In this document: piece by piece, positions 1,995 through 42,259 of the stretch
Position numbering within the stretch: position 1 is the first letter of the stretch
How the letters are laid out: each line of letters opens with the position of its first letter
Assembly: GCA_025936175.1 (NCBI GenBank)
Contig: JAICTV010000015.1
Location: 1 to 43,966 of the forward strand
Direction of reading: 5' to 3'
DNA from: Phycisphaerae bacterium
Lineage (GTDB): Bacteria > Planctomycetota > Phycisphaerae > Tepidisphaerales > Tepidisphaeraceae
DNA: 43,966 nucleotides
Made by a program: the position numbers and the translations under genes
Notes under the pieces: model-generated
What the model was told of the DNA's origin: nothing
Database searches by the model: none
Seen by the model: the letters and a program-made list of their open reading frames with translations, nothing else

Positions 1995-3527
1995 ATGGCA
2001 CGCATGATCCGATCCTTTCTCGTGCTCACAGCAGGAATCGTCTTGATGACAACCGCCGTCTCCGTCTCCGCGCAAACCACCGAACCATCCGGCGCCTCGC
2101 TCGCCTTTACCAGCAGCGATCCTTCGGTGAAGCAAGCGCTGTCGCTCATGAACGACGGGAAGTTCAAGGAGGCCAAGGCGTTGCTCGGCGCGGACGATTC
2201 ATCCGCCGACGCGGCGGCGACACAGGCGCGGGACGAACTGAAGGAAGTCATTCGCCGGACGCTCAACGATTATTCGCTCAGCCCCGCGGGTCTGCTCTCA
2301 AAGCTGAAGAAGGAGATCCCCGACGTCTCCGCCGACGATCTCGAGAAGTGGCGCAAGGCGGGCGAGGCGCAGTATCGGATGATCGACGGCCAGGTCGCCT
2401 ACTTCAATCGCGAGCCGCAGAATATTTACCTGTTCTGCAAGGAGGCGAAGGACCGCCGCGACGCCAGCGGCAAGAAGTCCGACGAGAAAGACGGCTGGAC
2501 GCTGATCAAGCATCTCCAGCACGTCATCGACGAGGCTCAGAAGACGGGGAAGACGGAAGTCGTGCCGATCCGGCATCGGCTGACGTACACGCTGACGGTC
2601 GACGGCAATCGCCCGGGCGCGAAGGAAGGTTCGCTCGTGCGCTGCTGGCTCCTCTTCCCGCAGGAATACCGGCAGCAAAAGAACGCGACACTGGTCTCGA
2701 GCGAGCCCGCGGGGGCGTTCGTCGCGCCCAGTGCGATCGACGGCAAGACGCACATCGCCAGCGGAGCGCCGCAGCGAACGGTGTACTTCGAGCAGCGGAT
2801 CACGGATCCGAGCAAGCCGATCACGTTCACGGAGACGATCGAATACGACTCGTACGCGTACTACCCGATCCTGAAGGACGAGCTGTGCCAGCCGCTGCCG
2901 GCGGACTGGAACGGCGCGTACCTCGGCGAGCGGCTGCCGCACATCGTCTTTACGCCGCAGATCAAGGAGACCGTCGCGAAGATCGTCGCCGATGAGACCA
3001 ATCCGCTCGCGAAAGTGCGCAAGATCTTCCACTGGTGCAGCGACAACATCCCCTGGCACGCGGAGGAGGAGTACACCACAATCCCGAGCCTTGCCCAATC
3101 CGCATTCGCGCGGAAGAAAGGCGACTGCGGCGTGCAGAGCACGCTCTTCACCACGATGTGCCGGATTGCGGGCGTACCGGCGCGCTGGCAGAGCGGGTGG
3201 GAAACCAAACGCTCCGGCTCGAGCATGCACGACTGGTCGGAGGTGTACATCGAGCCGTGGGGCTGGCTGCCGGTGGACGCGAGCTACGGGGTGCAGAGCA
3301 AGTCCGACGATCCGAAAGTGCGCGATTTCTACATCGGGCATCAGGACAGCTACCGGACGATCGTGAACCTGGATTACGGGCGACCGTTGATGCCTCCGAA
3401 ACAATCCTCACTCCGCAGTGAGCCGCTCGATTTCCAGCGCGGGGAGGTGGAGATCGACGGGAGGAATTTGTATTTCGATGAGTGGGATTACTCGATGAAG
3501 ATCGAGTGGTTGACGGGGGAGAAGTGA
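1995..3527 (+). CDS. Secreted transglutaminase-like superfamily protein
   Basis: The product is 510 residues with an N-terminal signal peptide ending near VSVSAQ. The first 150 residues are helical and charged, resembling a repeat region, and are followed by a beta-rich part. A transglutaminase-like (papain-fold) core occupies about residues 330-450. Its expected catalytic triad is visible: Cys378 in KKGDCGVQS, His412 in MHDWSEVYI and Asp428 in WLPVDASYG. Bacterial members of this fold are proteases, amidases or cross-linkers, and the sequence alone does not distinguish these. An ATG at 2004 (MIRSFL) is an alternative start giving a more compact signal peptide. The gene ends convergently against the RTX protein, with a palindrome filling the gap. 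Confidence 0.82.
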   Translation: MARMIRSFLVLTAGIVLMTTAVSVSAQTTEPSGASLAFTSSDPSVKQALSLMNDGKFKEAKALLGADDSSADAAATQARDELKEVIRRTLNDYSLSPAGLLSKLKKEIPDVSADDLEKWRKAGEAQYRMIDGQVAYFNREPQNIYLFCKEAKDRRDASGKKSDEKDGWTLIKHLQHVIDEAQKTGKTEVVPIRHRLTYTLTVDGNRPGAKEGSLVRCWLLFPQEYRQQKNATLVSSEPAGAFVAPSAIDGKTHIASGAPQRTVYFEQRITDPSKPITFTETIEYDSYAYYPILKDELCQPLPADWNGAYLGERLPHIVFTPQIKETVAKIVADETNPLAKVRKIFHWCSDNIPWHAEEEYTTIPSLAQSAFARKKGDCGVQSTLFTTMCRIAGVPARWQSGWETKRSGSSMHDWSEVYIEPWGWLPVDASYGVQSKSDDPKVRDFYIGHQDSYRTIVNLDYGRPLMPPKQSSLRSEPLDFQRGEVEIDGRNLYFDEWDYSMKIEWLTGEK

Positions 3528-3531
3528 ATCG

Positions 3532-3595
3532 CGGGTATCGGGTGTCGGGTATCGGGTCTGATTCGTCATACCCGATACCCGACGCCCGATAGCCG
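3532..3595. repeat. Palindromic element, family B copy 1
   Basis: The left arm (3532-3557) is built of three tandem gggtatcggg/gggtgtcggg-type units. The right arm (3569-3595) is its reverse complement with a few mismatches. It fills the gap between two convergent stop codons (3527 and 3602), starting 5 bases after one and ending 6 bases before the other. A second, shorter-armed copy is at 9458-9510 and shares the gtcatacccgatacccg loop and right arm. Confidence 0.87.
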
Positions 3596-3601
3596 AACTC
3601 G

Positions 3602-5572
3602 CTATTCCAGCGACGCGAGCGCGACTGCGGAGAGCGCGAGCGAATCCGCGGGCGCGGTATCGACTCCCTTGGTGAACTCGGTCTTGATCACGTCCGCGAT
3701 TTCTTTTTTCGGCGCGGAAAGTTGGACCGTCGCGCGACCGTAGAGTTTCTCCTTCGCGATCCTCGACTTGATCCACTGGTCATCGGACGATCGCTTGATC
3801 ATATCGGCGCCTTCGCCGCCGATGAGGGTGTCGTCACCGGAGCCGCCGTCGAGGAGGTCGTCGCCCGCGCCGCCGGAGAGGCGGTCGTTACCGGGTCCGC
3901 CGCGGAGGATGTCGCGCCCGCCGCACCCGCGGAGGACGTCGTTCCCGCCGTTCCCTTCGAGCGTGTCGTTTCCCGCGCCGCCGACGAGCGTATCGTCGCC
4001 GTCGCCGCCGGCGATGCGGTCGTTGCCCGCGTTGCCGAACACGTACGCGCCGATGATGCCGTGGCCGATGATGACCGAATCGTCTCCGCCGCCGGCGTCG
4101 ATCGAGATGCTCTTCACCTTTTTGCGGTCGAAGCCGAAGCTGGTCTTGTTGATGCTGACGACGATGCGCGAGCCGGAGCGGAAGACGAGGATGTCCTCGG
4201 CATCGTCAGAGCCGCTGACGAGCAGGCGCGATCCGCGCAGCTCGGCGGTTGCCGGCGGGGGCATTTGGAGGACCGGGGGGATGACGACGGCGGCGAGCGC
4301 CGCCGCCGGCGGCGCTGCGGGCCCGGGCGCAACGGGGGCAGCCACCTTCGCATCAACGTGTACGGCCGGCTGGGCGATGATCATCACTTCGCCGATCAGG
4401 GCGGCGGCCAGGGCACCAAGGGAAAGAGCCGGCGGTGGCGCGGGCGCCGAGACGTGCTCGGTCCTGGGCCCACGAACGGTGGCATCGTTTCCGACGACGC
4501 GCTCGAGCTCGTCACGACGCTGTTCGTCATCGCTGCCATCGCCCGCACCGCCGGTCGAGTTCATCCCGCCCGACGATTGCGTCAGGCCGTCGAGCCGGAC
4601 GAGTTGCAGCAGCGACGAAGCGGACGCGCCCACGAACGGCCCCATCGTGCTCGCCGAGGCGGACCCGCCGACGCCGGACGATGTGCCGGATCCGATCAGC
4701 GGCTGCTGATAACTGAGCCCTCCGCCGAAGGCGCTGTTGAGATTTCCGTCCGATGTGAAGCGGGCGACGAAGGGCGTACGGTAATCGTACGAATAGCCGG
4801 CGAGCTGCGCGTGATCCGCCGATTCCATCGTCCCGCGCAGCACGATCTGACCGGAATAATCGAACGCGACGCGGGCGGCGGCGCGCATGTCAAACCCGCC
4901 GGCGTCGTTGTCCTGTTCGACGAGCGGACCCACCGCGACGCCGGATCGGCCGAAGCGCCAGTCGAGCGTTCCGTCGGGCCGAAGCTTGATGACCGCGGCG
5001 GCCGCGCCGGCGTCGAGGTTGCTGCCCTTCCTCACGAACAGCCCGGAGAGCAGCAGCCCACCGTCCTCGGCGAAGATCGCTCCGCCGGAGGTGCCGCGCA
5101 GGTTTCCCCCGGGCAGCTTTTCCAGAACGCGCGTGCCGTCGTAGTCGAAGTGTTTATCGACCCGGCCGTCGGCGCGGAAGACGGTGACGGTGATCGACCC
5201 CCCGCCGCTGTCGATCACCGCGATGCGCCCGTTGCCGGAGACCGCCAGGAAATGCTGCTGATCGGGCGAGCGGTTGTCCTTCTTCGGGAGGATGTATTGA
5301 ACGATGCCGGCGGGCGCGGCGAGTTGCCCGCCGAAGGTCGTGTCGAGGGAGCCGTCGCCGTTGAGGCGCTCGATGACGTGACCGGGACGATGATCGTAGA
5401 TGGTGGTGCCGAGGCGGACGGTCTTTCCATCCGAGAGGCGGACGACGTCGGCGTGGCCCGAGTCGATGTCGGAAAGCGCGAATCGCACCCACCCCTTCGC
5501 GGCGGCGTGAACGGCCGCCGTGGAAGTCGCGTCCAGAAGCACGCGTCGCTCCAAGCCCTCGAGGTGCCTCAT
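3602..5572 (-). CDS. Large secreted delta-60/RTX calcium-binding protein
   Basis: The product is 656 residues. It opens with [13 protein letters not shown], a variant of the LEPR-XLL motif near the N-terminus of many planctomycete extracellular proteins. Residues about 60-280 carry delta-60-type repeats ([48 protein letters not shown]), probably forming a beta-propeller-like unit. An Ala/Pro-rich linker follows. About residues 510-595 hold nine RTX nonapeptides of the GGxGxDxLx type, such as GGAGNDTLE and GGSGDDTLI. These bind calcium in a parallel beta-roll and suggest folding outside the cell. The C-terminal 60 residues are unlike the repeats and resemble no type I secretion signal I recognise. 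No dedicated secretion genes are adjacent. Confidence 0.88.
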
Positions 5573-21381: not shown

Positions 21382-22182
21382 CGTTTGGCCGTCAAAGAAC
21401 ACCCGCAGGCCGCGCAAATTGTCCGTGTTGATGCAGTCCACGCCGGCATCAAGCAATTCACGCCATGCGTTCGACCGATCAGGCGCGTCCCAGAATCGAA
21501 TCTGCCGGCCCTTCGCATGGGCGCGCGCGACCAGATCGCGCAGCCGCGACCGTTCCTCCGCCGGCAGAGGTCCATCTCCCTTCCACTGAAACACCTTCGT
21601 CCACTGCACGTTCATCTGCGGCATCAGGTCGTGCGGGTACTCGCGATCGAGATCGGCGAGCACGCCGTCGATGGCGACGTAGCGCGGGTTCTCGGCCGCC
21701 AGCATCTCCGGACGCGGGCGGCTGCCGGTGAGGATGATGTTCAATGCGCCATCGTATTCCTTGTCGTCCTGGTAGCGCGTCAGCAGGTCGGCGTATTTCA
21801 GCAACAACTTCCTGAGCACCGGATACGTCGCGGCCGCGGGCGTTTTGAAATCGATCATCAGCGTGACCGTCGGCCCGCCGCGATACACGCGCCCGCCGTG
21901 CTCGGCGGCCCGTTTGCGCAGCGGCTCGAGGTAGAGCGACTCGAGCGTACGGTGCGGCGAGGTCTTCTTCGGATCGTGCGCGACGAGGAGCTTGCCGTTC
22001 ACGAGACAGATGTCCGCCTCGATGCTGCAGAAGCCGCATTCGAGCGCCTCGGCGCGGGGGCGATCGTGCGCGTAGTCGTTGTGAGCGTGGCCGTAGACAA
22101 GCGGAGCGGGATCGGGGCGAACGCGCGCGGCGCAGCCGATCAGCAGCGCGGCGGTGATCGCGATCATCGCTCCACTACGCAC
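21373..22182 (-). CDS. GDPD/PI-PLC-like lipoprotein
   Basis: The product is 269 residues from GTG 22182; an ATG at 22167 gives 264. The N-terminus is a lipoprotein signal (IAITAALLIGCAA, acylated Cys17). The core starts LVYGHAHNDYAHDRP, the HAHNDY signature of phosphatidylinositol-PLC/glycerophosphodiesterase-like proteins. It continues with SIEADICLVNGKLLVAHDP: His32, Glu55, Asp57 and His69 form the expected catalytic and metal site of the TIM barrel. RAHAKGRQIRFWDAPD and VDCINTDNLRGL are the late barrel strands. It probably cleaves a phosphodiester, perhaps of phospholipid headgroups, at the cell envelope. Its start overlaps the end of the Mug gene by 8 bases, placing it last in a three-gene operon. 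Confidence 0.83.
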   Translation of the reverse strand: MRSGAMIAITAALLIGCAARVRPDPAPLVYGHAHNDYAHDRPRAEALECGFCSIEADICLVNGKLLVAHDPKKTSPHRTLESLYLEPLRKRAAEHGGRVYRGGPTVTLMIDFKTPAAATYPVLRKLLLKYADLLTRYQDDKEYDGALNIILTGSRPRPEMLAAENPRYVAIDGVLADLDREYPHDLMPQMNVQWTKVFQWKGDGPLPAEERSRLRDLVARAHAKGRQIRFWDAPDRSNAWRELLDAGVDCINTDNLRGLRVFFDGQTSS

Positions 22183-40094: not shown

Positions 40095-41339
40095 TTAAGC
40101 ACTCGCCTCCCCGCCGCTCGATGCTTCGGCAGCCTTCTTCGACTCGATCAGACCCTTGCTGGTCAGCACCGCCTGTCGGATTTCTGCGGCGACGTCCTTG
40201 TTGTCGAACAGGAACTGCTTGGCGTTCTCGCGGCCCTGGCCGAGGCGCATCTGGCCGTAGTTGTACCAGGCGCCGCTCTTCTCCACGACGTTGGCGACCA
40301 CCGCCAGATCCACCAGGTCGCCCTCATAGCTGATGCCGCGGTCGAACATGATGTCGAACTCGGCATCGCGGAACGGCGGAGCGATCTTGTTCTTCACCAC
40401 CCGCGCCCGCGTGCGGGCGCCGATCGAGACATCGCCCTCCTTGATCGTCTGCGTGCGTCGGACGTCGATGCGGACGGAGGCGTAGAACTTGAGCGCCCGC
40501 CCGCCCGGCGTCGTCTCGGGGTTGCCGAACATCACGCCGATCTTCTCGCGGATCTGGTTGATGAAGATGACGGTCGTGCGGCTCTTGGCGATCGCGGCGG
40601 TGAGCTTCCGCAGCGCCTGGCTCATCAAGCGGGCCTGCAGGCCGACGTGCGAATCGCCCATTTCCCCTTCGATTTCCGCCCGCGGGATCAGGGCCGCGAC
40701 GGAGTCGATGACGATGACGTCCACGGCATTCGATCGCACGAGCAGCTCGCAGATCTCCAGCGCCTGCTCGCCGGTGTCCGGCTGCGAGACCAGCAGGTCA
40801 TCGAGCTTCACGCCCAGACGCTTCGCCCACGACGGATCAAGCGCGTGCTCCGCGTCGATGAACGCGGCGACGCCGCCGTTCTTCTGCGCGCTGGCGACGA
40901 TGTGGAGACACAGCGTCGTCTTACCGCTGGATTCCGGCCCGAAGATCTCGAGCACCCGGCCGCGCGGCACGCCGACGCCGCCCAAGGCGATGTCGAGCGA
41001 GAGCGAGCCCGTCGCGATGCCGTCGACGGCCGCGCGCTGGTCGCCGTCGAGCTTCATCACCGCGCCCTTGCCGAACTGCTTTTCGATCTGCTGGACGGCG
41101 CGGGTCAGCGCCGAATCGCGTGCCGGATTGTGCGGTGCGGCGGGGATCTCCTTCATCACCGGCTTGCTCGCGCCCGCGGGGGCGCTCGCGTTCTTCGCCG
41201 GCGCGGGCGCGAGCGAGGGCGAGGGCGCAGTCGTAACCGCGGTCGCGGATGAAGAATTCGAAGCACCGGAGGAGGAATTGGACGAAGTGGACGACTCGGG
41301 ACGGTCTTTCTTCCCGTCCTTCTCAGGGGACTTGGCCAC
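40095..41339 (-). CDS. recA: RecA recombinase with long low-complexity N-terminal extension
   Basis: The GTG at 41339, with AAAGGAG six bases upstream, gives 414 residues starting [17 protein letters not shown]. The open frame continues to 41414 but lacks a ribosome binding site. The core has [21 protein letters not shown], Walker [10 protein letters not shown] (134-142), [10 protein letters not shown] (Walker B), and [10 protein letters not shown] with [22 protein letters not shown] in loop L2. E. coli RecA has Walker A at residues 66-73, so this protein carries about 68 extra N-terminal residues, Ser/Ala/Pro/Thr-rich and free of recognisable motifs. RecA drives strand exchange and SOS induction. 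The promoter and leader are described separately. Confidence 0.96.
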
Positions 41340-41345
41340 GGAGGG

Positions 41346-41352
41346 CTCCTTT
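41346..41352 (-). promoter_or_regulatory. Ribosome binding site for recA
   Basis: AAAGGAG on the minus strand is followed by six bases and GTG at 41339. It fixes the recA start well downstream of the longest open frame. Confidence 0.8.
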
Positions 41353-41659
41353 CGATTTTCGCCGGGTCTCTTGTTCAGCCGGCGATTGCTCTTGCAGCGA
41401 TCTGGCGAATCCATTGAGCCGCGGGACTACGCCCCGCCACTTCCTGGGTGCTCGCGCAAGACCGCTCCTTCGAGCGACGGTGACTTGCGTGCGGCCGACC
41501 GCTGCCGATGCGATCAACCGCGGGTGCGTCCGGTCGCGTTTGTGCTGGTCAGAGACGAGCCTAAACGCTTGCAGCACGCTGCTGGACTCGACGGCAAGTC
41601 ACCTCGTCCGTCCTGATCCAGCACCTCCGCGTCAGGCCAAAAAGCCCACGGCGGATTAG
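41353..41659 (-). other. Long 5' leader of recA
   Basis: If transcription starts near 41659 (just downstream of the putative -10), the recA mRNA has a leader of about 320 bases, with no convincing gene. It has several small inverted repeats, for example gcagc/gctgc in the region 41570-41585. A GTG-initiated 84-codon frame (41577-41323) overlaps the recA start but shows no ribosome binding site. I see no known riboswitch. Confidence 0.45.
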
Positions 41660-41665
41660 GGCGAA

Positions 41666-41693
41666 ATTCTAGCTAACAAAAGCTAAACGTCAA
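41666..41693 (-). promoter_or_regulatory. Putative recA promoter with overlapping perfect palindrome
   Basis: Reading the minus strand, TTGACG (41693-41688) is followed by a 16-base spacer and TAGAAT (41671-41666), a plausible sigma-70-type promoter. A perfect inverted repeat tagct-N6-agcta (41670-41685) spans the spacer and touches the -10. Its position is that of a repressor operator. It matches neither the CTGT-N8-ACAG nor the GAAC-N4-GTTC LexA sites, so any LexA assignment is inference. The -35 overlaps the thpR stop codon. Confidence 0.5.
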
Positions 41694-42259
41694 GTCTTTT
41701 TCTCGGCTCCGATTGGGAATCGCGCCACCGGCAGGTAGACCGAGCCTTCGGAGCCGAGTTTGCTCTCCATCAGCACGAATTCCGGCGGCCAAAACGGGGG
41801 CCCCGGCCAGAGGTCCGCCGTCGCCTCCGCCGCCGTCGCCCGGAACCTGGCTGACAGCACCGGCCGCGCCCGCGCGATCGTCACGTGCGGACGATACGCG
41901 CGCTGCTCCTTCTCAAATCCCAGGAACCTGCACCGCTGCTCGATCGAGTCCACCAGCGCCCGCAGCGGTGGAATCGTCCCGTCGAGCGCGGCAGCGATGA
42001 TGCGCACCGGCCCGCGATTGGGAAAACAGTCAATGCCGGTCGCGGACAACTCGACCCGCGGGGTCGAGATCATCGCGATCGATTCGCTGATCGCGCCGAC
42101 CTTCTTCGCTTCAACCTCTCCGAGAAACTTCAACGTCAGATGCAGATTCTCCGCGCGCGTGCAGGAGACCTTGGGCAGCGCGGCTTCGAGCCGGCGACGG
42201 ACCTCGAGCAGATGCGATCGGACGTCCTTTGGCAACTCGATGGCGAGAAACAAACGCAT
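41690..42259 (-). CDS. thpR: RNA 2',3'-cyclic phosphodiesterase (2H family)
   Basis: The product is 189 residues. Both signatures of the 2H phosphoesterase fold are present: His40-x-Thr42 in ENLHLTLKFLGEV and His125-x-Thr127 in YRPHVTIAR. FLAIELP at the start and a C-terminal ARFPIG are typical of ThpR/LigT. It opens 2',3'-cyclic phosphates on RNA; E. coli LigT also joins half-tRNAs weakly. It follows the PfkB-family kinase by 40 bases, a gap holding a fragment of a repeat. The recA promoter begins at its 3' end. Confidence 0.88.
   Translation of the reverse strand: MRLFLAIELPKDVRSHLLEVRRRLEAALPKVSCTRAENLHLTLKFLGEVEAKKVGAISESIAMISTPRVELSATGIDCFPNRGPVRIIAAALDGTIPPLRALVDSIEQRCRFLGFEKEQRAYRPHVTIARARPVLSARFRATAAEATADLWPGPPFWPPEFVLMESKLGSEGSVYLPVARFPIGAEKKT

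Follow-up and report, generated by a model that had tools for sequence, protein, structure and literature searches.

A candidate LexA direct-repeat operator and a conserved pseudoknotted leader RNA at recA in a family of Phycisphaerae

The recA locus

The window analysed here, a stretch of 43,966 nucleotides, comes from a genome (G000) assembled as 5.5 Mb in 384 contigs. Its closest named relatives by RecA place it in the class Phycisphaerae of the Planctomycetota, and the family is tentatively Tepidisphaeraceae. It carries recA with a thpR-like gene of the 2'-5' RNA ligase/LigT type directly upstream (Table 1). The likely start codon of recA is the GTG at 41339, which has AAAGGAG ahead of it. 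For the promoter, an earlier sequence-only reading had given TTGACG-16-TAGAAT, and we find exactly that sequence at that place, with a spacer of 16 nt between the two elements. It is the sole promoter-like match within 41300-41760, where 0.1 is expected. With the transcript predicted to begin near 41659, the leader of the recA message would be ~320 nt long.

Table 1. Features of the recA locus in the window
Feature	Position	Strand	Remarks
recA	40095..41339	-	PF00154, E=3e-135
Structured recA leader RNA	41340..41622	-	model R1 match 41579-41625, E=1.3e-8
Shine-Dalgarno AAAGGAG of recA	41346..41352	-	
P4 hairpin CGCCGG-CTGAACAAGAGAC-CCGGCG	41360..41384	-	conserved loop; pairing probability 0.95-1.0 in G000
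Pseudoknot 3' strand AAGTCAC	41480..41486	-	
P1 3' strand GTCCAGC	41581..41587	-	
P2 3' strand CCGTC	41590..41594	-	
Pseudoknot 5' strand GTGACTT	41596..41602	-	in P2 loop
P2 5' strand GACGG	41608..41612	-	
P1 5' strand GCTGGAT	41616..41622	-	
Box with degenerate opposite-facing second box, ATTAGG-N22-CTAAAC	41655..41688	+	second box weak
-10 element TAGAAT of recA promoter	41666..41671	-	
Palindrome TAGCT-N6-AGCTA	41670..41685	.	by-product of direct repeat
LexA-type box GTTTAGCTTTTGTTA, GTTN-N7-GTTN direct repeat	41674..41688	-	11-bp period; between -35 and -10
-35 element TTGACG of recA promoter	41688..41693	-	overlaps thpR stop codon
thpR-like 2'-5' RNA ligase/LigT gene	41690..42259	-	PF02834, E=2e-22; directly upstream of recA

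A structured RNA in the recA leader

The fold of the window's leader reaches z=-3.7 against shuffled sequences, with none of 200 shuffles as good. The same elements recur across the family: a stem P1 of the CTGAAC/GTTCAG type, a stem P2 (GACGG/CCGTC), and a P2 loop, GTGACTT, that pairs over 7-9 bp with a strand (AAGTCAC) ~100 nt downstream, across a variable insert, to form a pseudoknot. A further hairpin, P4, reads GCCGG-CTGANNAANATAC-CCGGC, ends 12-23 nt ahead of the start codon and abuts the Shine-Dalgarno sequence of recA.

Covariation supports this architecture. In an alignment of the full structure, 97.8% of the cells are paired, 13 of the 25 pairs are changed on both sides, and 53 double changes are seen against 12 in shuffles; this alignment leans towards structure, because its pieces were picked by eye and complementarity. 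An alignment of P1 and P2 alone, made with the pseudoknot left out of account, has 98.2% of its cells paired and 7 of its 12 pairs changed on both sides. For the pseudoknot, an unguided duplex search provided an independent test and picked the same partner in 20 of 20 leaders. Compared against their own and permuted leaders, the loops fit their own better, with 0 exceptions in 20,000 (Fisher p=4e-10). Two positions of the internal loop (A2 columns 10 and 28) are exchanged in step, reading G/G in 16 leaders and A/C in 4; this exchange is not of the Watson-Crick type, which suggests a tertiary contact. A covarying structure upstream of the same gene, the mark of a structured cis-regulatory leader, is thus what these genomes present.

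The P1/P2 model finds one copy per genome, at recA, in 20 of the 26 family genomes. The RNA is missing from three others in which recA was located (G008, G024 and G011), and recA was not located in the remaining three assemblies (G006, G016 and G019). Among 371 other genomes of the class, the model found nothing convincing; weak matches in five of them (E 5e-4 to 4e-3) do not lie at recA and were taken as chance. Rfam covariance models gave no match up to E=1 in 41200-41800, and no Rfam family fits the recA loci of the relatives, where a single sub-threshold match to a miRNA model appeared (L046).

The leader RNA most likely tunes recA translation or mRNA stability in cis, since P4 puts the leader within reach of the initiating ribosome. 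Transcription attenuation was rejected because the leader holds no terminator. Fold predictions do not consistently sequester the Shine-Dalgarno sequence and give no clear on/off switch. A metabolite-sensing riboswitch, as opposed to a protein-binding or constitutive translation element, would suit the aptamer-like build, which combines a pseudoknot with invariant internal-loop bases and the 16:4 in-step exchange of G/G for A/C, as well as the conserved P4 loop adjoining the Shine-Dalgarno sequence. However, the RNA is confined to one gene in one family, a terminator is absent and the Shine-Dalgarno switch is inconsistent, so that we consider a riboswitch rather unlikely.

A direct-repeat box at lexA, recA and other SOS genes

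LexA typically regulates its own gene, and the lexA promoters of 16 family genomes (33 sites, ~16 bits) define a box, GTTNGG-N4-TGTT. A promoter usually has the box twice, once per strand, and 21, 22 or 23 bases then lie between GTTNGG and CCNAAC. This variable gap, together with the occurrence of single boxes elsewhere, argues for a single direct repeat as the binding unit. The 11-bp GTT repeat is present in the 33 lexA sites and at recA, and the fourth base of the first half-site is A in 15, C in 10 and T in 8 of the lexA sites. In the genome of the window, a short ORF stands ahead of lexA in the operon, and the operator lies at the operon promoter, TTGACA-17-TAATGT.

Several other features were observed around lexA. 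The short ORF (...SLVEADPTLAPKEQSQLLVAARVLDEAELQALLDGL..., contig C111, L036 about 3129-3642, minus strand) can be matched to a counterpart ahead of lexA in G007/G023 and has no Pfam match; it may encode an SOS protein. An RNase P RNA (RF00010, E=1e-90; L036 3881-4335, minus strand) adjoins the promoter of the lexA operon on its upstream side. In the lexA locus of G012 (L031 69-250), the lexA-type double operator is present twice before lexA, complete both times; the two copies are mirror images in sequence and lie ~100 bp from each other.

Only 17 sites in the 5.5-Mb genome match GTTHRG-N4-TGTT. Two of them are at lexA and one is at recA; another precedes ruvB, and a fifth lies where ruvA starts. 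Such a distribution over lexA and further SOS genes within one genome characterises LexA operators. The pattern was shaped partly by the lexA and recA sites and not by those at ruvA and ruvB; about 0.002 of the remaining sites would be expected by chance within two 300-bp promoters. The ruvB-upstream site is identical to a lexA half, GTTAGGGTAATGTT. Genome-wide the pattern is not enriched (17 sites against 39 for a reversed control), and several further sites fall within genes, which argues that most of the others are chance occurrences. A box-like site, GTTAGGTATATGTTTGGG, was also seen before a DUF1559/pseudopilin-type gene (G000:C62:4610-4623, L196) and is either chance or an unusual SOS target.

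A matrix built exclusively from the lexA sites of other genomes detects boxes in the recA promoters of 22 genomes. Fisher p is ~3e-22 on the assumption of independent genomes, which does not fully hold, and local p is <=0.011 in 17 of the 22. Boxes also precede imuA in at least G008, G011, G005, G014 and G013; in the genome of the window the imuA promoter lies beyond the edge of its contig (C72), outside this comparison. At uvrA promoters no clear box was found, apart from similar weak sites in G015, G009 and G007, and the dinB-like gene of the window's genome (C367) shows none either. Among 397 genomes of the class, the strict double operator was matched 13 times; lexA accounts for 11 of these matches, and recA in another family for the remaining 2.

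In that other Phycisphaerae family (G192 and G088), the lexA-type double operator stands directly before recA (L234/L235 around 1501), whose leader is much shorter and holds no copy of the leader RNA. At two imuA promoters (L189 2273-2298 and L181 2834-2859), three GTT-type half-sites follow one another in 11-bp steps, as if two boxes overlapped.

We infer from this distribution that LexA is the protein that would bind GTTNGG-N4-TGTT. Motif and protein are linked solely through the promoters they have in common, so another regulator could in principle read the box while LexA uses a different site. This is improbable: the strongest boxes stand at lexA itself, further ones occur at recA, ruvA, ruvB and imuA, which belong to the classical LexA regulon, and the genome encodes a canonical LexA, with PF01726 and S24 peptidase domains and with the Ala-Gly site and GDSM in its sequence.

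Turning to the recA promoter itself, the putative LexA box reads GTTTAG-CTTT-TGTT, with half-sites GTTT and GTTA, and differs from the lexA consensus by an A in place of a G. It scores 10.8 bits against the matrix from other genomes' lexA sites, the second-best match in the window; the best match (21728-21742, 14.8 bits), which falls within a coding sequence, was disregarded. Sites scoring 10.8 bits arise by chance about once per 6 kb, and the recA genes of most relatives carry GTTCAGNNTTTGTTCGG-like boxes in reverse orientation at the transcript start, whereas here the box occupies the promoter spacer. Both points would fit a chance match at a recA that escapes LexA regulation. To this reading we nevertheless give little weight: GTTN[AG]G-N4-TGTT occurs once in the whole 44-kb window, on either strand, and precisely within the promoter; G024 (GTTTAGCTTTTGTTT) and G005 (GTTCGGCTTTTGTTA) have an almost identical sequence at recA; and the degenerate second box reproduces, at N22, the layout of the lexA operators (GTTNGG-N21..23-CCNAAC).

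In most relatives, the box and the leader RNA meet, with GAAC of the P1 5' strand doubling as half of a LexA-type box. In four genomes (G000, G021, G012 and G002) the box half is gone from P1 and the best box lies elsewhere; in these four leaders both strands of P1 have changed, and all but an outer or single pair remain formed. This sets the two functions apart and shows that P1 is retained as RNA. That the P1 repeat (GAAC...GTTC) is a DNA operator dyad and no RNA stem, as the shared GAAC might suggest, is very improbable in view of these paired changes on both strands and of covariation in P2, the pseudoknot and P4, which are not GTT repeats.

The palindrome TAGCT-N6-AGCTA, which the sequence-only reading had noted across the recA promoter, is indeed present. 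As an inverted repeat it is unremarkable: perfect repeats with 5-bp arms and 4-8 nt spacers number 431 in the window, one per 102 bp. That the palindrome itself is a lineage-specific LexA operator we dismiss as scarcely credible: it is a perfect dyad located exactly between -35 and -10, but comparable dyads occur every ~100 bp, no further exact copy exists anywhere in the 5.5-Mb assembly, be it before lexA, before other repair genes or elsewhere, it is absent from the lexA, ruvA and ruvB promoters, and the lexA promoters have a different motif in common. It was accordingly rejected as a shared motif. We regard it as an accident of the direct repeat that it overlaps, since two copies of TTAGCT stand 10 bp from each other and TAGCTA is its own reverse complement. 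What holds of the proposed undescribed, lineage-specific LexA motif is an SOS-type operator at this location: a candidate box does lie between -35 and -10 of recA and recurs before lexA and other repair genes, which is the check that the sequence-only reading had itself proposed. What these promoters share, though, is GTTNGG-N4-TGTT, a direct repeat, and not the palindrome.

Predicted two-level control of recA and known systems

Taken together, we consider it probable that recA is controlled at two levels, by a LexA direct-repeat box and by a pseudoknotted leader RNA. The basis is comparative: the motif returns at several SOS genes, the leader has a covarying RNA structure, and this RNA is confined to recA; on these grounds LexA is the presumed binder, repression its presumed effect and translation the presumed controlled step. 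LexA bound to the box between -35 and -10 would block RNA polymerase, and the position of the box in the spacer suggests that this block is direct. Upon DNA damage, RecA-stimulated cleavage of LexA would free the recA promoter. The transcript would then begin with the conserved pseudoknotted leader, ending in a hairpin directly before the Shine-Dalgarno sequence, and the leader RNA would set or switch recA translation in cis.

With the box defined, the SOS regulon of planctomycetes becomes predictable and open to testing. Of the two findings, the leader RNA is the more important. Accounts of recA usually treat it as a gene under LexA control; an RNA that covaries strongly and stays with recA throughout a whole family implies a second layer of control. 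A more tentative proposal, which we hold possible without thinking it probable, is that the leader belongs to a regulatory RNA class not described before, either a riboswitch or a sensor of protein, which gates recA translation and adds an RNA signal on top of LexA. If so, the DNA-damage response of this family would be set by RNA as well as by LexA, with operator DNA and P1 sharing bases in most species.

Taken alone, the leader RNA would be a new RNA family. It resembles H-type pseudoknot riboswitches (preQ1, SAM-II/V, SAM/SAH) in being a 5' leader in which a loop pairs downstream, near the Shine-Dalgarno sequence. It differs from them in having no sequence or Rfam match, a long variable insert, a separate P4 and an association with recA only.

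Our search, confined to the open-access literature, turned up neither a LexA motif for planctomycetes nor any account of a leader RNA at recA. Planctomycete LexA has been reported not to use the E. coli box (PMC3108266). With the E. coli (CTGT-N8-ACAG) and Gram-positive (GAAC-N4-GTTC) systems the present one shares the regulon core lexA, recA and ruvAB; their boxes, however, are inverted repeats, and neither is found in the sequence 41640-41700 around the recA promoter, in agreement with the sequence-only reading. LexA motifs differ between phyla. For Verrucomicrobia, of the same superphylum, Erill and colleagues, in a 2016 study cited in PMC8565304, reportedly described a LexA motif that is a 14-bp palindrome, TGTTC-N4-GAACA, and discussed tandem LexA sites at lexA; that motif differs from the present box. 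The closest likeness in build is to the Alphaproteobacterial LexA box, a direct repeat GTTC-N7-GTTC (PMC3323433, PMC8565304): both are direct repeats of GTT-type half-sites with an 11-bp period, found before lexA and recA. In the planctomycete box, by contrast, the fourth base is free (A/C/T), a conserved GG follows the first half and T precedes the second, two opposite-facing boxes are usual at lexA, and the phylum is another. Because the fourth base is not C in both half-sites, the present box is a variant and not a member of GTTC-N7-GTTC, and the operator is a variant of the direct-repeat LexA box type known from Alphaproteobacteria.
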